Below, in pieces: positions 24,677-38,363 of a DNA stretch of 38,363 nucleotides. The notes beneath the pieces were generated by a model. The model was not told the origin of the DNA. It ran no database searches and saw only the letters and a list, made by a program, of their open reading frames with translations. The position numbers and the translations under genes were made by a program. The DNA is from Candidatus Goldiibacteriota bacterium (lineage in GTDB: Bacteria; Oederibacteriota; PGYV01; DSYL01). The stretch covers positions 1 to 38,363 of the forward strand of contig JAGNJD010000021.1 of NCBI GenBank assembly GCA_018000835.1, read 5' to 3'. The stretch's first letter is position 1; each line of letters begins with the position of its first letter.

Positions 24677-25028
24677 GAAAACGAATTAAATGGTGGAATT
24701 TTTCGCAAATGGTTATGAAAACAAAACAGCGGCTTATCCTGTGCTGGTTGCGTGGCACACCGTTTGAATATTCGCCTTGCTTATCTTTGAGACACAGCAA
24801 ACTTAAGTCTCTATGAATCTTGTTATAAACGGGGATGTTGTGAATTTAAGGGGTAAAAATGACGACGGATGATTAAATTCCATTAAAAACAAAAACCGGT
24901 TCCCGATTGCCCTGGAATGACAAACAAAAAACGCAGGAGGCCACGTAGTGACATTACTACAAAAAAACACGTTTTTCAGACAACCACATAAGGGCATCCA
25001 TACAAATTTTCCTTACTGCCAATTTAAT

Positions 25029-25076
25029 GAAAAAAAAAAAACAGAGACAGGTCTATAAAAAACCTGTCTCTGTTTT
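25029..25076 (-). terminator. Rho-independent terminator of the lipoprotein gene
   Basis: A perfect 14-base stem, AAACAGAGACAGGT (25039-25052) with ACCTGTCTCTGTTT (25062-25075), and a 9-base loop, are followed in the minus direction by an unbroken U-run (25030-25040). It starts 13 bases after the lipoprotein stop. Confidence 0.9.
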
Positions 25077-25088
25077 GTAAAAGACTAT

Positions 25089-25715
25089 TTACCATGTTAT
25101 ATCGTCAAATAAAATCGTTACAGTAGACGTAACAGGTTCTGACGTATCACCTGCTGTTACCTGAATTCCAACCTGTATAATTTTCGTTATGTCCTGACCT
25201 AATGAATCAGGTAACACCCATTCATACTTCTGCCATCCAGATGCCGTTATATTAAACCATTCAGCATCCCAGCCATAGCTCTCATCCTGCACAAATATCT
25301 GAACGCCATACGGAGTACTCGGTTGAACCAAATCAGCAGGAATATTTATCCATGCTGTTATTGTTTTTCCAGTAAAATTTGTTTCACTACCAAGAAATCT
25401 CTGAACTTCTCCTTTTGCACCTGGAGTTGTGAAATCACCCGTTACCTGCATACACCCAGGGGCTGTATGTCCTTCCTCTGAATTGTATGTTAAATCCGAG
25501 AAAGCCGGGTCATCGCCCAACGCCCAATCATCGGTTTGATCAGTATCAAATGGATATAATACTGGAACAGGCACTTCTGTTGCCGTAGGCACTTCTGTTG
25601 ATGTTGCCACAGGTTCAGGATTCGTTGGATTGTCGTCATCAGAGCTGCAGCCCATGAAAGAAATCATAGCCGTAACAAGGATAAAACTAAGAAAAACCGT
25701 CATTATTTTTTTCAT
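25089..25715 (-). CDS. Lipoprotein with a carbohydrate-binding-like beta-sandwich
   Basis: 208 residues. The signal peptide ends in the lipobox SFMGC with Cys23 as the lipidation site, followed by Ser-Asp-Asp-Asp and a Pro/Thr/Glu linker (PTNPEPVATSTEVPTATEVP). Residues about 55-208 form a jelly-roll-like domain rich in Trp and Tyr: WALGDD, GCMQVTGDF, TITAWINIP, GWQKYEW, and the end TVTILFDDITW. The final FDDI segment is typical of galactose-binding-like and CBM-type folds. It probably sits on the outer membrane and holds polysaccharide for the nearby cellulases. It has its own strong promoter, an AAAGGAGGTGA site and its own terminator, so it is a separate and probably highly expressed gene. 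Confidence 0.75.
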   Translation of the reverse strand: MKKIMTVFLSFILVTAMISFMGCSSDDDNPTNPEPVATSTEVPTATEVPVPVLYPFDTDQTDDWALGDDPAFSDLTYNSEEGHTAPGCMQVTGDFTTPGAKGEVQRFLGSETNFTGKTITAWINIPADLVQPSTPYGVQIFVQDESYGWDAEWFNITASGWQKYEWVLPDSLGQDITKIIQVGIQVTAGDTSEPVTSTVTILFDDITW

Positions 25716-25830
25716 TATATCTCACCTCCTTTCCCTTTTTATTTTAAATCTTTTATTAAATCCTCACCTCATATTTTTGATTATTTATGTTTGCAAATCC
25801 TTATGTGCGATTTTTAAATATCATAGATAT

Positions 25831-25858
25831 ATTATATTTATATATTATTTTCTGTCAA
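25831..25858 (-). promoter_or_regulatory. Strong sigma70-type promoter of the lipoprotein gene
   Basis: Minus strand: perfect -35 TTGACA (25853-25858), 16-base spacer, perfect -10 TATAAT (25831-25836). It sits 3 bases after the stop of the sugar isomerase gene, giving an untranslated leader of about 110 bases. Confidence 0.75.
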
Positions 25859-25861
25859 CAT

Positions 25862-26692
25862 TTAATAATATTTTTTTATCATGTCTTTTGCTTTTTTTAC
25901 TGCAATTCCAAAAAATTCAAATTCATTTTTTGATTTTTCTTCTTTTTCTGCCTGCAAAAATTCCTGGCCTTCATATTCTATCGTAATCCAGCCGCTATAT
26001 TTTGCATCGCTTAATATCCTGAAAATCCTGTCCATGTCAAAATCAGACGTCTGCCCGTCTTTACTTATCTTATGAACTTTTAAATGACAATACAAAGCAT
26101 ATTTCATTGAATCTGCTATTCCTTTATAAATATCTTCATCAAAGCCGAGATAATTGCCGGTATCTACGTTTAGTCTCACGTAAGGTGAGTTTACGTCTTC
26201 TATGAATTTAATGCTCGATTTAGAATCTGGCAGAAAGCCGCCATGGTTGTGCGGTTCAACAACTAAAGTTATACCCTTTTTCTCTGCATATTTTGCTGCT
26301 TCTTTCATGTATTTAACCGCATTGTTCCATAGTGCCTCACGTTTTCCCTGCGGAGGCCAGCCGGCAAAAACCCGGACAAAAGAAGCCCCGAGTATTTCTG
26401 CCGTGTCGACCGATTTTTTTACGTAATCCAGATTTGCCTTGTTGTCTTTTTCTTTTTCGTTTCCAAAATTATTTCCTGGCGATACTGCACATATTTCCAG
26501 TCCCGCATCATTTGCTTTTTTCCTTAACGCCCGCAGATGTTTTTCGTTATGGTCTTTTATGTGTTCCATTATAAATTCAATTCCGCCAAGCCCTTCTTTT
26601 GCATATAATTCTATCAGGCCGGAATCATCAAGTTTTCCTGTTTCAATGGAATGATGATGCGACCACGTCGTTGCAGATAATTTGTATGACAT
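25862..26692 (-). CDS. Sugar phosphate isomerase/epimerase (xylose-isomerase-like TIM barrel)
   Basis: 276 residues of the AP endonuclease 2/xylose isomerase-like TIM-barrel family. The metal-site residues typical of the family are visible: Glu146 in VVEPHNHG, Asp177 in RLNVDTGN, His203 in YCHLKVH and Glu239 in ITIEYEGQ. No signal peptide, so cytoplasmic. Members isomerise or epimerise sugars, keto-sugars or inositols; the substrate cannot be read from sequence. It follows the Gfo/Idh/MocA dehydrogenase gene by 38 bases, a very common pair in sugar and inositol catabolism. Together they probably handle a sugar derived from plant polymers. ATG 26692 follows GGAGGG. Confidence 0.9.
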   Translation of the reverse strand: MSYKLSATTWSHHHSIETGKLDDSGLIELYAKEGLGGIEFIMEHIKDHNEKHLRALRKKANDAGLEICAVSPGNNFGNEKEKDNKANLDYVKKSVDTAEILGASFVRVFAGWPPQGKREALWNNAVKYMKEAAKYAEKKGITLVVEPHNHGGFLPDSKSSIKFIEDVNSPYVRLNVDTGNYLGFDEDIYKGIADSMKYALYCHLKVHKISKDGQTSDFDMDRIFRILSDAKYSGWITIEYEGQEFLQAEKEEKSKNEFEFFGIAVKKAKDMIKKYY

Positions 26693-26730
26693 ATTCCCTC
26701 CGGATTTTTTATTTCGTTCCGCACTTCCGT

Positions 26731-27765
26731 CTAAACGTTTACTTTTTCAAATTTTCCGGTTTTTGCGGATTTTAATGCGGCTAATATCACCGCCATTGAT
26801 TTCATTCCTTCCACTCCGTCAACAATCGGCTTTTGTTTTTTTATTATGCAATCAACAAAATGTGCACATGGACTTATATATTTTGATTTTTCAGGAACTT
26901 TATAAGTATGCTCCTTTATTGTGTTATACGGATCTTCCGGCTTTATCGTCCATACGCGTATTCTTTGCGGGTCAATGTTTGACTGCTGAACAATTGCCTT
27001 TCCATGCGAGCCGCAAACTTCCACGCGGACTTCGTAAGGAGACGTAGACCATGATGCTTCAAACGAACCTAAAATTCCGTCTTTAAATTTTATGACGGCA
27101 TTAATGTTATCTTCCAATTTTATTTTTTTCTTTATCAAATTTGCGGTCTCTGCTGAAACGCTTACAATGTCTCTGTTATTTAAAACATATCTTATTAAAT
27201 CAAGTATGTGAATGCCTACATCCACACTTACGCCGCCGCCTGATTTTTTCTTGTCAAAAAACCAGGGGGAATTATCCGACCAGAACTCAGGTCCGGAATG
27301 CCCGAGTTTTCCTCTAACCGTTGCAATTTTACCAAGGATGCCGCTATCCACCACTTCTTTTAATATCTCATGAGCAGGGTCAAACCTGTGCGTCTGTTCA
27401 ACCATTAACACGACCCCGTTTTTCCTGCAGGCCTGAACCATGTTTTTCATGTCCTTAACAGACAAAGCCATTGGTTTTTCAACGAGAACGTGTTTTTTAT
27501 TTTTTGCGGCAAATATCGTCATGGATGCGTGCAGATAGTTTGGAACGCATACAGATACAGCATCAATATCAGATTCCATTATCATTTTTTTATAATCAAC
27601 ATAAACGTTTTTGATTTTATACTGCTCTGCTAATCTTACTGCTTTTTTCTTTATAATATCACATATTGCTACGATTTCCACGTCCGGGCATTCAGAATAC
27701 TGCGGTAAATGAAGCCGTTCTGCAATCTTTCCGGCACCAATAACTCCTACTTTTATTTTTTTCAT
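26731..27765 (-). CDS. Gfo/Idh/MocA-family NAD(P)-dependent oxidoreductase
   Basis: 344 residues. The Rossmann start has VGVIGAGKIA (6-15), the family EKP motif is at 96-98 (LVEKPMAL), and the catalytic-region VDVGIH is at 181-186 with Asp182 and His186. Family members oxidise or reduce sugars, sugar acids and inositols with bound NAD(P). It heads a two-gene operon with the sugar isomerase. The start ATG 27765 has a weak AAGGTGA site. The first 35 bases of this gene, plus the whole upstream region, are repeated exactly at 31470-31992 in front of the GH5 gene. Confidence 0.93.
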   Translation of the reverse strand: MKKIKVGVIGAGKIAERLHLPQYSECPDVEIVAICDIIKKKAVRLAEQYKIKNVYVDYKKMIMESDIDAVSVCVPNYLHASMTIFAAKNKKHVLVEKPMALSVKDMKNMVQACRKNGVVLMVEQTHRFDPAHEILKEVVDSGILGKIATVRGKLGHSGPEFWSDNSPWFFDKKKSGGGVSVDVGIHILDLIRYVLNNRDIVSVSAETANLIKKKIKLEDNINAVIKFKDGILGSFEASWSTSPYEVRVEVCGSHGKAIVQQSNIDPQRIRVWTIKPEDPYNTIKEHTYKVPEKSKYISPCAHFVDCIIKKQKPIVDGVEGMKSMAVILAALKSAKTGKFEKVNV

Positions 27766-28184
27766 ATTTCACCTTAATTATTTAATAGTTTTCATATAAA
27801 ATAACATACGAAAACGTTTTTGTCAATATGATTTAAAATAAAACGTAATAGTTTTATTTATAAGTAAACGCTCGTTTTATTCGAAAGGACGTAAATATTG
27901 ATGCACAGCAGGCTTAAATCAATACGTCTCGTTATTTTGTCTGGCGATTAAATTACGTCCTGTGGTGCGTGTTTTACGGTTTGTTATAGGTGATATATGT
28001 GATAGCAATGATAACGTATACTACTAATACGCAGCCGGCAATTTTATTTTACTATCTGCCTGCTGTATTTGTTTAATACCACGTAATAATATATATCTGC
28101 CGATACTTCTTTTTCAACCCTGTTTTTGCAATCCCATACTACCCTTATCTTATAAAATCGCTTATTACCTGTAGTTTTGTATTT
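27766..28184. other. Intergenic region upstream of the dehydrogenase gene
   Basis: 419 bases between the GH5 stop and the dehydrogenase start. Only the promoter near the right-hand gene is recognisable. I see no strong terminator after GH5 and no small gene. The whole region is duplicated at 31505-31923. Confidence 0.6.
27798..27826 (-). promoter_or_regulatory. Promoter of the dehydrogenase-isomerase operon with an operator-like palindrome
   Basis: Minus strand: perfect -35 TTGACA (27821-27826), 17-base spacer, weak -10 TATTTT (27798-27803). The spacer holds the perfect palindrome AAAACGTTTT (27811-27820), with a central CpG as in LacI-family operators. A repressor bound there would block polymerase directly. 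Confidence 0.55.
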
Positions 28185-31100
28185 TTACTTCAGTATTACC
28201 AATACTTCCGGTTTGCTCTGCGTTTTTCCCCCTTTTGTATTCATAACTTCTATTAAAATATAATATACCCCGTTTGCAATATCTTTCAGATATCTTTCCT
28301 GTATTTCTACGTCGTTTGTTCCAACGCCGTAATTTTCCGTCTGTGTTATCTGCTTTATTAATCTGAAACTGGTTGTATAAATCCTTACTTTTATTATTTT
28401 ACATTTCTGCGTTATTTCAAATTTGATTTTTAAATTTCCTTCGTCCGGATTGTCCGGATTATATGGGTTGGGATAAATTATTACGTTGCTTATCGTAAGT
28501 TGCTGATTTTCTGGCTGTGTTATTGTAGGCGTTGCCGTAAAAGACGTTGTCGGCTGCTGACTGTTGGTTGGCGTTCCGGTCAAACTTGGCGTTGCCGTCT
28601 GCGTGTTTGTTATTATCTGCGTATTTGTCTGCGTCCACGTCCATGTTGCTGTCCTGCTGAAACTCGGCGTCACTGTCCATGTATTTGTTATTACCATCGT
28701 ATTTGTTCTTGTCCATGTCGGCGTTCTTGTCCATGTTGCCGTATTAGTTGGTGTGAACGTTGAACTTTGAACATTGAGCGTTGAACTTGTAGTTGGCGTT
28801 CCTGTTGGCGTCCTTGTTCCCGTATTTGTATAAGTAGACGTTGGTAACGTTGTCCATGATTGCGTTATCGTTGGCGTATTCGTAGGCGAAGGTGGCGTCC
28901 CGGTCCATGTCTGCGTTATTGTTGGTGAAATAGAATGCGTCGTCGATATTGTCCGCGTTGCAGTCCCGGTGGGTGTCCTTGTCCATGTCCCTGTTGGCAA
29001 TGCTGTCCACGTATTGGTCATCTGCATCGTGTTTGTCCGCGTCGCAGTTCTGGTTGGCGTTCTTGTCCACGTGCTTGTCGGCGATGCTGTCAATGTTGCC
29101 GTTCCTGTCAACGTATTCGTTATTATCATTGTATTCGTCCGGGTAAACGTTCCCGTTGCGTTCTCTGTCCCTGTTGGCGTCCTCGTCCACGTATTTGTAT
29201 AAGTAGACGTTGGTAACGTTGTCCATGATTGCGTTATCGTTGGCGTATTTGTAGGCGAAGGTGGCGTTCCTGTCCATGTCTGCGTTATTGTTGGTGATAT
29301 TGAATGCGTTGGTGATATTGTTAGTGTTGGTGTCCCTGTCCGTGTTAAGGTTTGCGTTATACTTGGCGTGTTTGTCGGTGTTGATGTTCTCGTCCATGTC
29401 CCTGTTACTGTTCCTGTATAGGTAGGTGTATTTGTTCGCGTCCATGTCCATGTATTTGTCGCAACTGATGTGTTTGTCTGCGTCACTGTGGCTGTATGTG
29501 TCCATGTCCATGTTCGTGTAGATGTTCCTGTGTATGTGCTTGTTGAAACCTGCGTATTTGTCCGCGTTGCGGTCCCGGTTGGTGTCCTTGTCCATGTCGG
29601 CGTTGCTGTCCGCGTATTTGTTATTATCACCGTGTTTGTCCGCGTCGCGGTCCCTGTCCACGTTCTTGTTCTTGTGAAAGTATTCGTTATCGCCTGCGTA
29701 ACTGTTGGAGTTCTTGTCCGGGTATAAGTGGAAGTTGGTGGTTGTGCACATGCATTGCCTGATGAGCATGCTTCTATTCCTGAATTAGCGTCCTGCACTG
29801 ATGCACTGGTCCATTCGCACACAAGCACTCCATTTTCATATAATGCTGCATATTGCAGATTTGTCCAGTTACTGTTTGCAGGTAATCGCGAATAATCATT
29901 GCATCCATCATCTACAGGACTTGCCCAGCTACCGCGGTATAAATCCACCACCTTACCGGTTGTTAATTGTCCCCCATTTGCTGCAATTGTGCCTGCACTA
30001 AAACTAAATGTAACATATTGATTTGCCATTCTATTACCGCTTCCACAACTCGTCCCCATTGCTGTTCTCACTGCACTGCTTACTGCATCCCACGGACCAT
30101 TCACACCTATTGTATTAGTGGAATAAAACCACATTCTGACTGTCAGTGTAGTCCTGTCTATTGCAACTGTATCATAATTTGTTATCCTGAAGGCAATATT
30201 ATACACGTTTGCATTGCAAACATCATTTCCCGAAGTATTCTGCACCTCAAGATTCAATTTATGCGTCGGCGGTATCGTCGGTGATATAGTAGGCGTTCTC
30301 GTTATTGTCCGCGTAAAAGTTCTTGTTGCCGATAAATTAACGGTAGGCGTTCTCGTAGCCGTGCCGCACGTTGGTAAAACAAGAGCAGAATGATTATTTT
30401 TAAACGAATTGGAAGCAGGCGATACCTGCGTCCATCCGCCGTATGAGTCAACTCCATTTGACGTCCATGGCATCATTCCCTGCCATCCGTTGCTATATGC
30501 AGATTCATAATCCTGCGTAAGAGTATGACCCGTTGTCCCCATTGCAGAACATTCTCCTACGACGCAGGGTTTATCACTAATTCCAAAACTTGCAGGCGTT
30601 CCATACATTAACATTGTCCAGTATGGATCCATCCATGAATACCAGTGTGGTGAATAAAAATCCAGTTTTGCCCTGGTGTCTGAAACCCTTGCCTGTAATG
30701 CTGCATCGCTTACCTTGTTTCCCATTGAACCGCTTACAGTATCCGAATTGTATTTTATCACTCCCATGCCAACTGTTACCAGCACCTGACTGTTTGCATG
30801 TATGGCAACCGCTGCTTTTGCCCAAAAGGTCTGAAATCTTGTCCACGAAATTACTCCGCCTTCGTCAGTCGTAGCCCATTCAGGCTCGTTTGTCATATCA
30901 ATACACCATAAGGCAGAATTACCGCCATAGCGGGTTAAAAACGGAATCAGATAATTATTAATGTATGAATCAATGTTTGTGTCGGAATTTATCCAGTTTC
31001 TCCATCGCTGATAAGTCGTGTATGAATCCTTAAAATGGTCAAAAGAAATAAGGGTTGCTTTTATGTATACGCCGCGGTTGTTTGCTATGTTAAAAAAATC

Positions 31101-31457
31101 ATCCAGGTTGGACCAATGTGCCGCAGTTGCACCTGAAACGTAACCGGTTGAATCAATGTTGATGCCGACTTCTCCTGAGCAGGTAATCCATACTCTGGAA
31201 GAATTCAGTCCATAAGAATTAAACTGGGAATAATGACTATCCCACCAGGCAGAATCATAAGAACCACCAAAATCATTCCAGTTATCCCATGGCGTATTTG
31301 CCCCGCACATCCAGATACGATTTCCACATACCTGAAACTGTGAACCATTGACTGATATTCTTCCGGGGACTGCTGAAAATAATAAAGGTATTATGGTAAA
31401 AAAGGTTAGAATGATGATTAGATTTATTTTAGTAAAATTATTCAACTTAATTTTCAA
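28185..31457 (-). CDS. Secreted GH5-type endoglucanase/mannanase with CBM3, Thr-rich linker and sorting-type C-terminus
   Basis: 1090 residues. Signal peptide about 1-29. A GH5-like TIM barrel (about 32-365) has the acid/base Glu191 in DMTNEPEW, His271 in YSPHWYSW and probable nucleophile Glu302 in VVGECSAMG. After a short Thr-rich linker comes a CBM3-like cellulose-binding module (about 400-565) with RITNYDTVAIDRTTLTVRMW in two parts: RITNYDT and LTVRMWFYS. A long Thr-x-Thr linker (about 574-982) leads to a C-terminal domain of 108 residues with YPNPYNPD and ending PEVLVILK. It should hydrolyse beta-glucan or mannan outside the cell; GH5 substrate choice cannot be read safely. The start is TTG 31457, overlapping the TGA of a 16-codon upstream frame. 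The last 69 bases lie in the 523-bp repeat. Confidence 0.9.
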   Translation of the reverse strand: MKIKLNNFTKINLIIILTFFTIIPLLFSAVPGRISVNGSQFQVCGNRIWMCGANTPWDNWNDFGGSYDSAWWDSHYSQFNSYGLNSSRVWITCSGEVGINIDSTGYVSGATAAHWSNLDDFFNIANNRGVYIKATLISFDHFKDSYTTYQRWRNWINSDTNIDSYINNYLIPFLTRYGGNSALWCIDMTNEPEWATTDEGGVISWTRFQTFWAKAAVAIHANSQVLVTVGMGVIKYNSDTVSGSMGNKVSDAALQARVSDTRAKLDFYSPHWYSWMDPYWTMLMYGTPASFGISDKPCVVGECSAMGTTGHTLTQDYESAYSNGWQGMMPWTSNGVDSYGGWTQVSPASNSFKNNHSALVLPTCGTATRTPTVNLSATRTFTRTITRTPTISPTIPPTHKLNLEVQNTSGNDVCNANVYNIAFRITNYDTVAIDRTTLTVRMWFYSTNTIGVNGPWDAVSSAVRTAMGTSCGSGNRMANQYVTFSFSAGTIAANGGQLTTGKVVDLYRGSWASPVDDGCNDYSRLPANSNWTNLQYAALYENGVLVCEWTSASVQDANSGIEACSSGNACAQPPTSTYTRTRTPTVTQAITNTFTRTRTWTGTATRTNTVIITNTRTATPTWTRTPTGTATRTNTQVSTSTYTGTSTRTWTWTHTATVTQTNTSVATNTWTWTRTNTPTYTGTVTGTWTRTSTPTNTPSITQTLTRTGTPTLTISPTHSISPTITQTWTGTPPSPTNTPTITQSWTTLPTSTYTNTWTRTPTGTENATGTFTRTNTMIITNTLTGTATLTASPTSTWTRTPTRTATRTNTMQMTNTWTALPTGTWTRTPTGTATRTISTTHSISPTITQTWTGTPPSPTNTPTITQSWTTLPTSTYTNTGTRTPTGTPTTSSTLNVQSSTFTPTNTATWTRTPTWTRTNTMVITNTWTVTPSFSRTATWTWTQTNTQIITNTQTATPSLTGTPTNSQQPTTSFTATPTITQPENQQLTISNVIIYPNPYNPDNPDEGNLKIKFEITQKCKIIKVRIYTTSFRLIKQITQTENYGVGTNDVEIQERYLKDIANGVYYILIEVMNTKGGKTQSKPEVLVILK
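28512..29738. repeat. Degenerate Thr-x-Thr linker repeat of the GH5 gene
   Basis: About 1.2 kb of short degenerate repeats encode TWTRTPTGTATRTNT-like sequence on the minus strand. Two copies of a roughly 45-residue cassette beginning SISPTITQTWTGTPPSPTNT lie near 28800-28940 and 29165-29310. All linker frames, including the antisense, stay open over long stretches. Confidence 0.85.
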
Positions 31458-31504
31458 TTAAAAATTCCCCCGGCACCAATAACTCCTACTTTTATTTTTT
31501 TCAT
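31454..31504 (-). pseudogene. Vestigial 5' end of the dehydrogenase gene, now a 16-codon upstream frame coupled to GH5
   Basis: The right-hand repeat copy keeps the dehydrogenase ribosome-binding site, its ATG (31504) and 11 codons, giving MKKIKVGVIGAG. It then crosses the repeat junction and ends after GIFN at TGA (31454-31456). That TGA overlaps the TTG start of the GH5 gene (31455-31457) as TTGA, a classical layout for translational coupling. GH5 has no ribosome-binding site of its own just upstream (GGGGAATTTTTAA only), so it may rely on ribosomes finishing this frame. Confidence 0.75.
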
Positions 31505-31923
31505 ATTTCACCTTAATTATTTAATAGTTTTCATATAAAATAACATACGAAAACGTTTTTGTCAATATGATTTAAAATAAAACGTAATAGTTTTATTTAT
31601 AAGTAAACGCTCGTTTTATTCGAAAGGACGTAAATATTGATGCACAGCAGGCTTAAATCAATACGTCTCGTTATTTTGTCTGGCGATTAAATTACGTCCT
31701 GTGGTGCGTGTTTTACGGTTTGTTATAGGTGATATATGTGATAGCAATGATAACGTATACTACTAATACGCAGCCGGCAATTTTATTTTACTATCTGCCT
31801 GCTGTATTTGTTTAATACCACGTAATAATATATATCTGCCGATACTTCTTTTTCAACCCTGTTTTTGCAATCCCATACTACCCTTATCTTATAAAATCGC
31901 TTATTACCTGTAGTTTTGTATTT
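31505..31923. other. Intergenic region between GH9 and GH5 (duplicate of 27766-28184)
   Basis: An exact copy of the DNA upstream of the dehydrogenase gene. It contains the copied promoter and nothing else recognisable. Confidence 0.7.
31537..31565 (-). promoter_or_regulatory. Captured promoter in front of GH5
   Basis: Copy of the dehydrogenase promoter: -35 TTGACA (31560-31565), spacer with palindrome AAAACGTTTT (31550-31559), -10 TATTTT (31537-31542). It is about 80 bases upstream of the GH5 start and would place GH5 under the same control as the sugar catabolic operon. Confidence 0.55.
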
Positions 31924-34900
31924 TTACTTCAGTATTACCAATACTTCCGGTTTGCTCTGCGTTTTTCCCCCTTTTGTATTCATAACTTCTATCAAAATAT
32001 AATATACCCCGTTTGCAAGATCTTTCAGGTATCGGTTCTCTATTTTTACGTCATTTGTTCCAACGCCGTAATTTTCCGTCTGTGTTATCTGCTTTATTAA
32101 TCTGAAACCGGTTGTATAAATCCTTACTTTTATTATTTTACATTTCTGCGTTATCTCAAATCTGATTTTTAAATTTCCTTCGTCCGGATTATATGGGTTG
32201 GGATAAATTATTACGTTGCTTATCGTAAGTTGCTGATTTTCTGGCTGTGTCATTGTAGGTGTTATTGTATTTGTTAACGTCAAACTTGCCGTAAAAGACG
32301 TTGTCGGCTGCTGACTGTTGGTTGGCGTTCCGGTAAAACTTGGCGTTGCCGTCTGCGTGTTTGTTATTATCTGCGTATTTGTCCGCGTCCACGTCCATGT
32401 TGCTGTCCTGCTGAAACTCGGCGTCACTGTCCATGTATTTGTTATTACCATCGTATTTGTTCTTGTCCATGTCGGCGTTCCTGTCATTGTATTTGTTGGT
32501 TGCTGACTGCCGGTTGCTGTTTGTGTGAAACTTGGTGTTACTGTCCGTGTTGGTGTGAACGTTGAACTTTGAACATTGAGCGTTGAGCTCGCCGTAGGCG
32601 TTCCTGTTGGCGTCCTTGTTCCCGTATTTGTATAAGTTGACGTTGGCAGCGTTGTCCATGATTGCGTTATCGTTGGCGTATTCGTAGGCGAAGGTGGCGT
32701 CCCTGTCCATGTCTGCGTTATTGTTGGTGAAATAGAATGCGTTGATGTTGCCGTCCTCGTCCCTGTCTGCGTCCACGTCCACGTATTAGTCAGTTGTACT
32801 GTATTTGTCCGCGTTGCAGTCCCGGTTGGTGTCCTTGTCCATGTCCCTGTCGGCGATGCTGTCCGTGTCGACGTCCCTGTCCACGTATTGGTCATCTGCA
32901 CCGTGTTTGTCTGCGTCGCAGTTCTGGTTGGCGTTCTTGTCCACGTGCTTGTCGGCGATGCTGTCAATGTTGCCGTTCCTGTCAACGTATTCGTTATTAT
33001 CATTGTATTCGTCCGGGTAAACGTTCCCGTTGCGGTCTCTGTCCCTGTTGGCGTCCTTGTTCCTGTATTTGTATAAGTAGACGTTGGCAGCGCTGTCCAT
33101 GATCGCGTTATCGTTGGCGTATTTGTAGGCGAAGGTGGCGTCCCTGTCCATGTCTGCGTTATTGTTGGTGAAATAGAATGCGTCGGCGATATTGTCCGCG
33201 TTGCAGTCCCGGTTGGTGTCCTTGTCCATGTCCCTGTCGGCGATGCTGTCCGTGTCGACGTCCCTGTCCACGTATTGGTCATCTGCACCGTGTTTGTCTG
33301 CGTCGCAGTTCTGGTTAGAGTTCTTGTCCACGTGCTTGTTGGCGTTGTCGTCCGCGTCCCTGTCGGCGTCCATGTGAACGTGCCGGTTACCTGCGTGTTT
33401 GTTCTCGTTGCCGTTCTCGTCCATGTCGGCGTTGACGTCTGTGTCCATGTCCACGTCCATGTGAATGTGCCGGTTGCCTGCGTATTTGTTCTCGTTGCGG
33501 TTCTCGTCCATGTCGGCGTTATCGTCCACGTATTTGTTATTATCACCGTGTTTGTCCGCGTTGCAGTCCCGGTGGGTGTCCTTGTCCATGTCCATGTCGG
33601 CGATGCTGTCCGTGTTGATGTTCCTGTCGGCGTTCCTGTAAATGTGTTTGTTGCAACCTGCGTATCTGTTGGCGTTGCAGATGCTCCTTCTAACCTGATA
33701 TTGTCTATATCTACCGTCCAATCCACGTTCCAACTTGCTGCAAATCCTATAAAATCAATGACCGTCTGTCCTGCTTCAACCAGAACCGATAAAGGAACGC
33801 GAACAGTTTTCCAGGTCGTATCTATTGACCCACCTTCCACTATATATGTCGGATCAACCTGAACGATATTTGTCCAGTTTATCCTTACAAAAAGCTGGTT
33901 TACGGGATTTGGACTCGTTGATGCCTGTCTCACATTGAAAACAAGGTATGTGTTTGCCCCAATACTTACATTTGTCGTTTTATCCCACCAGTGCTCCTGC
34001 CACCACCCGGAAATGGAAGCATACGTAAGCCGCATTCCGTTTCCCGTCAAACCATAAACACCTTCTGTCATTGTGCCCGGAGAACCATTGTTAACCGTGC
34101 CGTCAGACAACCTGTATCCTGCCGTGTCACCGTCATAAATAAGGGTATATGGGGGGATTGGCGTTCCTGTTGGTGTGCTTGTAGGAGAATAATATGGTGT
34201 ATTTGTCGGCGTTCTTGTCCTTGTGGGCGTAAATGTCGGTGTACCTACATAAGGAGTGTTTGTTCTTGTCCTTGTCGGAGTTGCCGTAGGTCCTGTCTGC
34301 CCTGCGAACGCGGCGTTTAACATAACAAACGCTGCCTGGTATCCTGTTGATGGCTCTGTTATTTCCCACGAACTATCAGGCCATACAGAATTCCAGTCCC
34401 TGTATGATTTCATTGGTGGTTGCCCATAAGGTGGAACAACTGAACTGACACCGTAGTATTGATTGGGACCACCTGAAAGATATCCTGGTGCAGGATTGGA
34501 ATCCCACACTGTCCCATCTGCAAACCATCCATGAAAAATCTGAGTTATTGATTTATCCGCACCAAATAATTGCGACTGTGTTAAATAACAATAAGCAGTT
34601 GCATTCCTGCCAAAATAATAATGTAAATATTCTTCTGCAGTTTCAAGATATGTTGCAATCATTGATGGATTTACATTAAGATTTGCACCCCACAAGCACA
34701 TGTCTGCCCATCCGGCTTTCATTGAATTTGATCCCCAGCAGTAATGTCCTGACCACATATGTGCTTTGTATGGACAATTATTGATATTAGGAGTAATATT
34801 CCACTCAATACCATTTCTTAAAGAAGTTTTTATTGCATTTACCACAGAAGTTGTAGCACCAGGTGCCATTGCATATGAAACAAGACCCTTTTGCATATCA

Positions 34901-36144
34901 CCTGATGCACCGGTTTCAAAATAATTACTAATAATTGGCTGATGAGAACCATCTGCTGTATTTGAGTTGTTATAATTTGCATCGCAATAATTTTTATATG
35001 TCGTATTCCCGGTTAACCTGAACAGCTCAGCTGCAGCTATAAAACGCAGCTGGTTATCACCTGCTGAATTACGATTTGCATTAGCATTATCAAAATTTGT
35101 ATGGTCATATTGTATATTAGAAGGATGTGAAGATAAAAAATTCCATGCATTTACTGCTGCTGTCTGAAGCTGGGTGGAGTATCCCGGGTATGCCCCGCTG
35201 TATGGTGCAAACAGGCGCGCACCAATTGCAAAAGCTGCAGCACCAGAAGCAGTCGCGGCAGTTGAATAATTAGCATAAAAATATGGTCGTAAATCATAGG
35301 ATGGATCGCCATCAGCGGCTGTTCCAGTAATACCTGTCACAACAAAACATCCCGAATACAATGCACCATCCGGTCTCTGCATTTTTAACATCCAGTCCAG
35401 TTCCCATTTTATCTCGTCAAGAATGTCGGGTACACCGTTTCCGGATTCGTTTATGGCTGTGTTGTCGCCAAATCTGTCAGGATACCATTCATATGCATAA
35501 GCAAGATTCCATATAACAGCAGCCATCCATGACGTATATTTCCTATAGTCACCTGCATCAAACCAACCCTTTGTTATATCTCTCTGTGTTCCAGATTGCA
35601 CTCCGCCAAGTGAATTATCATAAAGCAAAGCAGAACCCTGTTGTGCATGATCATAAACATGTGTCCATGTCCCCCCTGTAGCAGCAGTAATGGTTATATT
35701 GGAACGATTGTAAAAATACATTTTTACAGATGCCTGTAGTGCCCCATTATAAATATTATCTCCTATATCAAAGTTATATGACTGTCTGTCGTTTGTTGGA
35801 TCATATATGTGGTAAGTCCCGGGAGTAGTAAAGGAAGTAAATTGTCCCTGCCATACTTTATCTCCCGAAAAAGTCGTATCAGTTGCACCGCCGTTCCATG
35901 CGGTCAGCGTTATCGTCTGCATAACGGCGTTGTCTGACGACCTGCGTAACTGAACCGATGCACCAGGCACATACGTTATTGCAGAATCATAGCCGGTTTG
36001 CGGGTCTTTTATCATAAACCATTTTGCAGAATTTGGCCTGTAGCCGATCTGATCTACTATTATCTGTTCAGATATTGGTGCGGATAAAATAATCTGGAAG
36101 AAAAATAAACTAATAAATAAACACAAGAATAATCTTTTTTTCAT
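31924..36144 (-). CDS. Secreted GH9 endoglucanase with CBM, Thr-rich linker and sorting-type C-terminus
   Basis: 1406 residues. A signal peptide (about 1-22) is followed by a CelD-type N-terminal Ig domain (VDQIGYRPN at 30-38, to about 125) and the GH9 (alpha/alpha)6 barrel (about 130-615). WFDAGDY has the catalytic-base pair Asp196 and Asp199; WEITEPSTGYQAAFV has the likely acid Glu597. A first Thr/Pro linker (617-665) precedes a CBM-like jelly roll (about 668-822, ending DIDNIRLEG). A long Thr-x-Thr linker (about 823-1301) leads to a 105-residue C-terminal domain nearly identical to that of the GH5 enzyme. GH9 enzymes cut cellulose, often processively. No cohesin or dockerin is present, so this is not a cellulosome enzyme. 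It has its own promoter and operator-like site. Confidence 0.93.
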   Translation of the reverse strand: MKKRLFLCLFISLFFFQIILSAPISEQIIVDQIGYRPNSAKWFMIKDPQTGYDSAITYVPGASVQLRRSSDNAVMQTITLTAWNGGATDTTFSGDKVWQGQFTSFTTPGTYHIYDPTNDRQSYNFDIGDNIYNGALQASVKMYFYNRSNITITAATGGTWTHVYDHAQQGSALLYDNSLGGVQSGTQRDITKGWFDAGDYRKYTSWMAAVIWNLAYAYEWYPDRFGDNTAINESGNGVPDILDEIKWELDWMLKMQRPDGALYSGCFVVTGITGTAADGDPSYDLRPYFYANYSTAATASGAAAFAIGARLFAPYSGAYPGYSTQLQTAAVNAWNFLSSHPSNIQYDHTNFDNANANRNSAGDNQLRFIAAAELFRLTGNTTYKNYCDANYNNSNTADGSHQPIISNYFETGASGDMQKGLVSYAMAPGATTSVVNAIKTSLRNGIEWNITPNINNCPYKAHMWSGHYCWGSNSMKAGWADMCLWGANLNVNPSMIATYLETAEEYLHYYFGRNATAYCYLTQSQLFGADKSITQIFHGWFADGTVWDSNPAPGYLSGGPNQYYGVSSVVPPYGQPPMKSYRDWNSVWPDSSWEITEPSTGYQAAFVMLNAAFAGQTGPTATPTRTRTNTPYVGTPTFTPTRTRTPTNTPYYSPTSTPTGTPIPPYTLIYDGDTAGYRLSDGTVNNGSPGTMTEGVYGLTGNGMRLTYASISGWWQEHWWDKTTNVSIGANTYLVFNVRQASTSPNPVNQLFVRINWTNIVQVDPTYIVEGGSIDTTWKTVRVPLSVLVEAGQTVIDFIGFAASWNVDWTVDIDNIRLEGASATPTDTQVATNTFTGTPTGTSTRTASPTWTWTRTPTGTATRTNTVIITNTWTITPTWTRTATRTNTQATGTFTWTWTWTQTSTPTWTRTATRTNTQVTGTFTWTPTGTRTTTPTSTWTRTLTRTATQTNTVQMTNTWTGTSTRTASPTGTWTRTPTGTATRTISPTHSISPTITQTWTGTPPSPTNTPTITRSWTALPTSTYTNTGTRTPTGTETATGTFTRTNTMIITNTLTGTATLTASPTSTWTRTPTRTATQTNTVQMTNTWTGTSTRTASPTGTWTRTPTGTATRTNTVQLTNTWTWTQTGTRTATSTHSISPTITQTWTGTPPSPTNTPTITQSWTTLPTSTYTNTGTRTPTGTPTASSTLNVQSSTFTPTRTVTPSFTQTATGSQQPTNTMTGTPTWTRTNTMVITNTWTVTPSFSRTATWTWTRTNTQIITNTQTATPSFTGTPTNSQQPTTSFTASLTLTNTITPTMTQPENQQLTISNVIIYPNPYNPDEGNLKIRFEITQKCKIIKVRIYTTGFRLIKQITQTENYGVGTNDVKIENRYLKDLANGVYYILIEVMNTKGGKTQSKPEVLVILK
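32242..33678. repeat. Degenerate Thr-x-Thr linker repeat of the GH9 gene
   Basis: About 1.4 kb of the same repeat DNA as in GH5, including two copies of the SISPTITQTWTGTPPSPTNT cassette (near 32600-32745 and 33040-33185) and blocks shared almost word for word with GH5. It is probably homogenised by recombination. Confidence 0.85.
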
Positions 36145-36165
36145 AATTACCTGCTTTTTTTCTTT

Positions 36166-36193
36166 AGTATACCATCTTTTCTGATTCTGTCAA
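36166..36193 (-). promoter_or_regulatory. Strong sigma70-type promoter of GH9
   Basis: Minus strand: perfect -35 TTGACA (36188-36193), 16-base spacer, -10 TATACT (36166-36171), about 22 bases upstream of ATG 36144, so the leader is short. It sits in the 86-base gap after the GH44 stop. Confidence 0.7.
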
Positions 36194-36195
36194 TC

Positions 36196-36209
36196 CTGAA
36201 ACGCTTACA
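36196..36209 (-). promoter_or_regulatory. LacI/CcpA-like operator candidate upstream of GH9
   Basis: TGTAAGCGTTTCAG on the minus strand, two bases upstream of the -35. It matches 8 of the 10 fixed positions of a cre-type TGNAANCGNTTNCA site, including the central CG. It resembles, but is not identical to, the palindrome in the dehydrogenase and GH5 promoters. Confidence 0.4.
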
Positions 36210-36230
36210 AAAAATCAGCACGGCTAATTT

Positions 36231-38363
36231 TTATTTAATTATGATGAAATGCGTTATTTTGCTTTTTTGTTCGTTCCCTTTTTTGTCCTTAACTACGCAT
36301 ACGTAATAATAAATCCCGCATGCAAGTTTGTTTATTTTATCCCGAGGAATTTCAAGAGTTGTGAATAAATTCCCGCTAAATTTTACTTCTTCTATCTCCC
36401 TGAACCCCATCGTATAAATTTTCAGTTTTATGGAATCTATCTGCCCTGAAACGTCACAATACAAAAAAACCTTTTGCGTATTTTTTACGACAGGGTTTGG
36501 ATATATGAAAACGTCGTTGATTGTCGTCTGCTGATTACCGGTTTCCGTAAAAGACGTTGTCGGCTGCTGACTGCCTGTTGCAGTCCGGGTTACCGTTATT
36601 ATCCATGTTGCTGTCACTGTTCGCGTTTGTGTTGGCGTTCCTGCCGCTGTTCTTGTCCATGTTGCCGTATTTGTTGCTGTAAACGTTGAACTTGGGACAT
36701 TGAACGTTGAACTTGCAGTTAACGTCGGCGTCCTTGTTCCAGTATCTGTATAAGTGGACGTTTGTGATATCGTCCATGACTGCGTTATCGTTTGCGTAAT
36801 CGTTGGGGAAGGCGGCGTCCCGGTCCATGTCTGCGTTATCGTAGGTGATACAGAATACGTAGGTGATATTGTCCGCGTCCACGTCAACGTTATACCCGGC
36901 GTTAACGTTAAACTTGGCGTTATTGTCCTTGTTGCCGTGCGAGTCATTGTGTTGACAGGCGTCCTTGTCGGCGTTGCATTTGATTTTAAAACAAAATGCA
37001 AAACAAAATGAGCAGGAACTGAATATGAAAAAGTATTTCCGGTTAAAACCGGTGCAGCCCTTGACGTTATGTTATAATTTGCTCCGCCAAATCCCCAGCA
37101 TTCAACAGATGTATAAGTCATACCGCTCGTAATATTTACGTTTGCGGTCTGGTTTGTTCCTGCCTTGTTTATTACAATTATGTGGAGTTCTTTTTCGTCA
37201 GAACCGTTTATTGAAGCATAAGTCGTCATGTTCGGGATGTCGTTTGATTCACAATATACTTTTGTATCCCCGTATTTGCCGTTTGCACCGTTATAATTCC
37301 TGAAAATTTTATATGCAGCGGAATGATATGGTCCGTAAGCCGTCTTCCACATGGTTGCCGCATAAACGCCGTATTTGCCGAAAATGCCCAGGGTATCTGC
37401 CATTGAAATGCCGCCTGAATAATCATTCCCTCCGCCATGTGCAAACTCAGTAATCGTGATTTTTGTCCCGGGATAATACGTATTAATTGAATTCTGTAAT
37501 TTGGGAATTAAAGGAAGTGCCCATGGATACCACTGTGCAATAGGACTGTTTTCCACGTAAGTTGTATCCCATAACGTCCTTGGCGCCTGCATCCTTGCAA
37601 TCTGCGCAGCAGACGACGTACAGGAATCCTCGGTTATTCTGCAAACCCCCGGAGTATTATACGTAAACGGTGGTGCCGTTCCTTCCCTTGCTTCTGAATA
37701 CCAGTGAAAATCAATTGCATCAAGTAACCGTCTGCCGTCAGTATCCGATGCCTGTTTCATTTTTGCGAGATAATAATCTACGAACCACTGATAACTTCCC
37801 TTTTCAGTTGTCCAGTCAGGCGGATTCCCAAAATCATTCATTGCCCAGAACCCAAAAAATACCGGCGCTAATATTTCACAATAAGGGTCAACATCTTTTA
37901 TTGCCTTTGCCGTTGCAATAGAACGGGTTACAATTTCTGATGCCCCGCATGGCGTTGGATGAATTCTTGGATGCGTATCGTCCCAGAGTGCAGGTTCATT
38001 ATCAAGATCATAAAATTTTACGCCGGTTTCGGTTGATGCATTGCCAAAAACGGATACAAGATAATTCACCTCTTCGTCAACATACACGTAATTATCCGTT
38101 AAATCCGGTGGATAAACAAGAGAAGACGACTTTTTGGGGACAACCTGTTTCCATCTTGAAGACGGGGCCGTCTGCGCAAGAGTTACAGTGCCTGCCTGGT
38201 CAGCAGCAACATAGCCGGCCATAGGAACGGTTATTATTGATTGCATGCCTGCGTTTAAACTTTCCTGATGGAATCGTCTTATGAGTCCACCAGGCTGATT
38301 ACAATCAGTGCCATACCCGTAATTACTTGAGCAGAGCCACGTATCAGACGTATGATACCAGTC
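36231..38363 (-). CDS. GH44 endoglucanase with Thr-rich linker and sorting-type C-terminus (5' end off-window)
   Basis: 710 residues visible. The frame stays open to the window edge (38363), where it reads DWYHTSDTWLCSSNYGYGTD, so the ATG at 38246 is internal and the N-terminus with its signal peptide is missing. GH44 motifs: DLDNEPALWDD with acid Glu123 of the visible part, and ITITEFAHGGGND with likely nucleophile Glu306. A beta-sandwich follows to about residue 465, then a shorter Thr-rich linker and a 102-residue C-terminal domain (FIYPNPVV...NKLACGIYYYV, ending HFIIIK). GH44 enzymes are endoglucanases/xyloglucanases. The C-terminal domain is the same type as in GH5 and GH9 but clearly diverged. 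The GH9 start is 87 bases downstream. Confidence 0.92.
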   Translation of the reverse strand, partial: DWYHTSDTWLCSSNYGYGTDCNQPGGLIRRFHQESLNAGMQSIITVPMAGYVAADQAGTVTLAQTAPSSRWKQVVPKKSSSLVYPPDLTDNYVYVDEEVNYLVSVFGNASTETGVKFYDLDNEPALWDDTHPRIHPTPCGASEIVTRSIATAKAIKDVDPYCEILAPVFFGFWAMNDFGNPPDWTTEKGSYQWFVDYYLAKMKQASDTDGRRLLDAIDFHWYSEAREGTAPPFTYNTPGVCRITEDSCTSSAAQIARMQAPRTLWDTTYVENSPIAQWYPWALPLIPKLQNSINTYYPGTKITITEFAHGGGNDYSGGISMADTLGIFGKYGVYAATMWKTAYGPYHSAAYKIFRNYNGANGKYGDTKVYCESNDIPNMTTYASINGSDEKELHIIVINKAGTNQTANVNITSGMTYTSVECWGFGGANYNITSRAAPVLTGNTFSYSVPAHFVLHFVLKSNATPTRTPVNTMTRTATRTITPSLTLTPGITLTWTRTISPTYSVSPTITQTWTGTPPSPTITQTITQSWTISQTSTYTDTGTRTPTLTASSTFNVPSSTFTATNTATWTRTAAGTPTQTRTVTATWIITVTRTATGSQQPTTSFTETGNQQTTINDVFIYPNPVVKNTQKVFLYCDVSGQIDSIKLKIYTMGFREIEEVKFSGNLFTTLEIPRDKINKLACGIYYYVCVVKDKKGNEQKSKITHFIIIK
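36540..36980. repeat. Degenerate Thr-x-Thr linker repeat of the GH44 gene
   Basis: About 440 bases of linker repeat with one diverged copy of the SPTITQTWTGTPPSPT cassette (near 36730-36870). It is shorter and less similar to the GH5 and GH9 linkers than they are to each other. Confidence 0.8.

Follow-up and report, generated by a model that had tools for sequence, protein, structure and literature searches.

The kind of event considered here, in which a duplication puts a gene under a new promoter, is already known, and the GH5 case would be a new instance of it. In Cit+ Escherichia coli, the rnk-citG duplication activated citT, with a captured promoter, a truncated fusion ORF and collapse through the repeats (PMC5918244). 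The locus analyzed here is similar in that a duplication appears to have set a gene behind a differently controlled promoter, a truncated leader ORF precedes that gene, and direct repeats would allow recombinational collapse. It differs in that the locus retains a single copy of GH5, upstream of which stands another gene, GH9, whose 3' end is paralogous. Moreover, the promoter that would have been captured here carries a conserved, putatively catabolic operator. If our reading is correct, a natural and apparently recent duplication has rewired gene regulation in an uncultured, polysaccharide-degrading bacterium, and the event can be set beside the best-known case from the laboratory.

The operators of LacI-family regulators of sugar catabolic operons are palindromes of roughly 16 bp with a central CG that overlap the -35/-10 promoter region. 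The palindrome described below shares these properties, and its putative identity is based on the palindrome itself and a phylogenetic footprint.

A likely related organism is the cellulase-rich Candidatus Cellulosimonas argentiregionis (Goldbacteria). The part of its description available to us lists many GH5, GH9 and GH44 enzymes and cellobiose phosphorylase, as well as assembly in SPAdes with k values as high as 127, and that part does not describe an operator or a gene-order duplication of this sort (PMC7031533). According to the same part, that genome comprises 2.74 Mb in 278 contigs, compared to 2.32 Mb in 74 contigs here (PMC7031533). The window that we analyzed is a stretch of 38,363 nucleotides from a Candidatus Goldiibacteriota bacterium, whose genome is designated G000.

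The repeat and its joint with GH5

Two direct copies of a sequence that we call R bound the unit that contains the GH5 gene (Table 1). An exact comparison finds them identical over 523 bp, with a mismatch at the next base on either side, and they account for all repeated 127-mers within the window. A match of 523 bp cannot arise by chance. There is no further full-length copy of R in the 2,318,936-bp, 74-contig genome, where the remaining matches consist of a part of about 95 bp, corresponding to the gene-end relic discussed below, and short, weak pieces. All window genes near R are on the minus strand, and we describe R in this direction.

Table 1. Positions in the window of the two copies of R, the features they contain and the genes around them
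Feature	Position	Strand	Remarks
Xylose-isomerase-like TIM-barrel protein	25862..26692	-	Second gene of the conserved operon
GFO/IDH/MocA dehydrogenase (DH)	26731..27765	-	Leads the conserved operon; the promoter and the 35-bp stub come from it
R1 (523 bp)	27731..28253	-	Last 69 bp of GH5, 419 bp non-coding, first 35 bp of DH; from identity and ORF boundaries
DH operon promoter	27798..27826	-	TTGACA-17-TATTTT; aligned with relatives
Putative LacI-type operator, original site	27808..27823	-	Palindrome ACAAAAACGTTTTCGT between -35 and -10 of the DH promoter
Relic of another C-terminal-domain gene end, in R1	28049..28144	-	VVWDCKNR..YYYVVLNKYSRQIVK*
Same relic, in R2	31788-31883		
GH5 gene	28185..31457	-	Signal peptide, mannanase-like GH5 domain, CBM3-like stretch, Thr-rich linker, C-terminal sorting-type domain
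16-codon leader ORF MKKIKVGVIGAGGIFN	31454..31504	-	MKKIKVGVIGA (from DH) + GGIFN; made by the junction
Novel joint	31458..31469	-	DH stub and 12 bp before the GH5 start; breakpoint match is a short GG only
R2 (523 bp)	31470..31992	-	Last 69 bp of GH9, 419 bp intergenic, 35-bp DH stub joined to GH5
Second promoter copy	31537..31565	-	Now 5' of GH5
Putative operator, duplicated site	31547..31562	-	ACAAAAACGTTTTCGT ahead of GH5
GH9 gene	31924..36144	-	CelD_N domain, linker, C-terminal domain closest to that of GH5 (94%); GH9 by Pfam

Most of what an earlier note on this DNA had claimed about the repeat agrees with these results. The coordinates of the identical copies are exact and neither end can be extended, and the ORF boundaries agree with a repeat of mixed coding and non-coding content. 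The repeat coordinates give a unit of 3739 bp, and a crossover between R1 and R2 would remove one R together with GH5, exactly as was proposed, leaving GH9-R-DH. The ORF list holds no transposase between or beside the copies of R, which bears out the claim that no insertion sequence is involved, and no inverted repeats were reported in the repeats or the unit, so that neither a transposase nor terminal inverted repeats mark an insertion sequence or composite transposon. The only transposase-like ORF in the window, which we take to resemble an IS30-type transposase, is at the far end of the contig (73-789), and this is probably an assembly break point. The earlier note overlooked the conserved operator and promoter within R, which in the second copy lead into GH5.

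The names of both glycosidases also stand: that of GH9 is supported by Pfam, and that of GH5 by phmmer matches to solved endo-beta-mannanases (5y6t, E 2.1e-26), on account of which mannanase is also its likely activity. Pfam gives no match for GH5 at E<=0.001, and the CBM3 match is weak (E 0.0014). The catalytic glutamate motifs expected of a beta-mannanase, NEP and GE, are present both in GH5 and in the homologue from a relative that is described below.

At R1, the DH reading frame continues past the repeat, while at R2 it is cut short where the repeat ends, 12 bp before the start of GH5. R2 thus brings the DH promoter, a ribosome site and 11 codons directly ahead of GH5. The arrangement has two properties that promoter capture should leave: the promoter segment is present twice as a direct repeat with one copy before its own gene, and the second copy immediately precedes a different gene on the same strand, with 12 bp between the joint and the GH5 start. 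The TGA of the leader ORF overlaps the TTG start of GH5 (TTGA), a layout that is typical of translational coupling. Because the start codon of GH5 is TTG, such coupling may be weak.

The promoter and palindrome within the repeat

The palindrome ACAAAAACGTTTTCGT begins within the -35 hexamer and occupies most of the spacer, and AAGGTG and then ATG follow downstream. We read it as the putative operator of a LacI-type regulon for polysaccharide use. The regulator would be a LacI protein, because of the palindrome and because LacI genes adjoin glycosidases in two genomes (G003 and G001). As expected of a LacI-type operator, the palindrome is kept at the promoters of orthologous operons; exact matches to its degenerate pattern ACNAAARCGYTTTNGT are found at the DH operon promoter in G000, G003, G004, G009, G010, G011 and G013, and a match with one mismatch in G007. 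An alignment and a pattern scan both show that further families of the order have the promoter and palindrome 5' of this operon as well. Within the window's own genome, exact operator sites number two, one per copy of R. A third site of the form AAAACGTTTTCG, on contig C22, was rejected, as it is within a coding region. We also set aside a promoter-like match on contig C23 of this genome, which is located ahead of a dehydroquinase-like gene and has no operator palindrome.

Among 14 genomes of the order, the degenerate pattern ACNAAARCGYTTTNGT has 14 exact sites, compared to 2 for a reversed control; when up to one mismatch is allowed, sites of the pattern are no more frequent than those of the control. 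Exact sites beyond the DH operon precede a GH94 phosphorylase gene (G008), a gene for a mannanase-type binding domain (G013) and, in both G003 and G011, the gene of a secreted protein with BNR repeats. These observations predict a 16-bp operator as a mark of polysaccharide genes throughout an order that has no cultured genetics. In the window's genome, an operator with one mismatch is found before the gene of a DUF6055 secreted protein that belongs to a run of C-terminal-domain genes on contig C29 (L105, G000 C29:30141), where further members of the regulon are possible. An Rfam scan of positions 25000-38363 gave no match, and the folding of the intergenic RNA has a z-score of -2.25.

Among 45 genomes of the phylum, including the window's own, there is one close homologue of GH5 (59%, G003), and it is located away from DH. 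An operator-like sequence, ACGAAAGTGTTTTCGT, is 142 bp upstream of it (G003 C1:153949-153964; L041 7950-7965). Allowing up to one mismatch, the 2.9 Mb of G003 contain four operator sites, one of which is this one; we estimate the chance of such a placement as about 2 in 10,000 for a 300-bp stretch, with the caveat that the site was noticed after the fact. Because the pattern with up to one mismatch is no commoner than the control, it is the position of this site that argues for it. If the site is right, GH5 would belong to the same regulon in both families, through its own promoter in G003 and through a borrowed one here. In another genome, a GH5 homologue appears as two broken pieces with stop codons, as in a decaying copy (L043 6556-6955, G012 C236).

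Possible origins of the arrangement

We consider it probable, though well short of certain, that a recent duplication put the DH promoter and operator before GH5, in other words that GH5 captured this promoter. The repeat is then probably a regulatory fusion as well as the boundary of a removable unit, since a conserved promoter with its operator is contained in R and, in the second copy, points into GH5. The copied segment would have comprised the last part of a glycosidase gene, the regulated DH promoter and the first 35 bp of DH, and would have been joined to the 5' end of GH5. Such an origin would require one illegitimate joint, between the DH stub and GH5, and one homologous crossover in the C-terminal-domain (CTD) ends of GH5 and GH9. 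These ends offer homology for the crossover, because the two CTDs are 94% identical, while the next paralogue is at 61%. The simplest route would be a tandem duplication of GH5-R beside DH, after which the first GH5 was lost by recombination with the end of GH9. Template switching with a homologous return would give the same product, and the data do not choose between these routes; an intermediate of the duplication was not found in the relatives.

In the resulting arrangement, GH5 would be transcribed from the second DH promoter, obeying the same LacI-type operator, and translated by coupling from the 16-codon leader. The duplicated promoter thus probably puts GH5 under a conserved sugar-gene switch, and if the capture is true, co-expression of GH5 with the DH operon is predicted. 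Excision and amplification by RecA between direct repeats of 523 bp are well established in general. Here, RecA could delete or multiply the 3739-bp unit, which is mechanistically sound and which we infer from the repeats. It is important, when direct repeats are found, to read their promoter content before calling them only the ends of a removable unit.

A single crossover of circular or linear DNA at a glycosidase end could also have put GH5 between GH9 and DH, such that the duplication of the promoter is incidental. Integration of this kind likewise leaves the order A-R-B-R-C, and the patchy distribution of GH5, with one close homologue in the 44 other genomes of the phylum, fits a gain by transfer. 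However, the incoming molecule would already have had to carry the DH stub joined to GH5, so that the illegitimate joint is needed in any case. In addition, GH9 is beside DH in none of the relatives read in context, and the end of GH5 is paralogous to CTDs of its own genome. We therefore view this origin as unlikely. Far less likely, to the point of being hard to credit, is an ancient duplication whose copies of R have been kept identical by gene conversion. The adjacent CTD-coding stretches do alternate between blocks with 100%, with about 93-98% and with lower identity, as conversion between paralogues would leave. Yet conversion has no reason to preserve 419 bp of non-coding sequence and a useless DH stub to the last base, and the identity of R ends abruptly at the joint.

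It is also necessary to consider the assembly. In several groups of contigs, the starts have exactly 126-127 bases in common, which indicates a de Bruijn short-read assembly with k=127. De Bruijn assemblers can merge small differences between repeat copies. As R, at 523 bp, exceeds k, the number of GH5 units, the perfect identity of R and variation in the population are not secure, and the assembler has in part inferred both the "perfect" identity and the presence of just one GH5 unit. Accordingly, differing copies of R might have been merged, or GH5-R might occur as a tandem array of several units, form a circle of its own or be confined to a part of the population. In a k=127 graph, R is one edge and the contig is one resolved path; a single insert, multiple inserts, or A-R-C together with a B-R circle would all agree with the graph A-R-(B-R)-C. 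On the other hand, all of the joints, including that of the DH stub with GH5, are sound because they are contained within single k-mers and need no resolution of the repeat. The junction also makes biological sense, with its operator, leader and overlapping start, and the completeness of the genome is 94.5%, with contamination estimated at 0%. That the arrangement is an effect of assembly seems to us quite improbable, more so than integration by a single crossover. A GH9-DH form or a B-R circle might be present in the population, and because of the length of R, short reads can test excision or amplification only if their fragments span more than 523 bp. Promoter capture by duplication remains our preferred reading.

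Gene ends and neighbouring genes

The earlier note proposed that GH9 followed by DH is probably the ancestral order. This proposal fits poorly with the relatives: among those of the order that have a close copy of DH, seven of which were read in context, none has GH9 beside it. Relatives of other families have the DH operon without GH5 and also without GH9 there, and genomes of the same genus lack a close DH. The nearest GH9 (83%, G001 C59) ends at a contig edge. A scan for DH in genome contigs gave one relative from the order (G009) and one distant match in Paenibacillus. DYJU01000015.1 (L087) groups with this order although its record title reads Candidatus Methylomirabilis; it is probably mislabelled.

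A further argument against the proposed ancestral order is that R holds the remains of a third gene. The relic, of about 95 bp, is a CTD gene end of a second type; it is 91-93% identical to gene ends on contigs C73, C55 and C4, and is worn. Since R contains the truncated end of a third CTD gene, an earlier deletion probably already shaped the junction between glycosidase and DH. The relic is in frame after the stop codon of GH5 and of GH9, and readthrough of the stop would append it. There are 33 CTD matches in the genome, and the DNA of the GH5 and GH9 ends is 100% identical over the last 69 bp, followed by 12 differences in the next 170 bp. As a broader and rather doubtful conjecture, the near-identical CTD gene ends might be recurrent points of recombination that shuffle secreted glycosidases among regulated promoters in this lineage. 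GH5 would then have been plugged again into the regulon to which its homologue belongs in another family, earlier rounds would have left the gene-end relics, and members of the population may carry different numbers of the 3739-bp unit.

In G004 and G009, the order of the operon is the gene of a small secreted protein, DH and the TIM-barrel protein. The small secreted protein, which leads the operon in G004, G009 and G012, is here behind the DH operon (25089-25858), and therefore the operon was reordered in the lineage of the window. In this location its gene has a perfect consensus promoter of its own, TTGACA-16-TATAAT, at 25858-25831. The DNA of the Thr-rich linkers of GH5, GH9 and GH44 (28500-29750, 32280-33700 and 36540-36885) is a mosaic of blocks with 60-98% identity, which suggests repeated exchange among these linkers.
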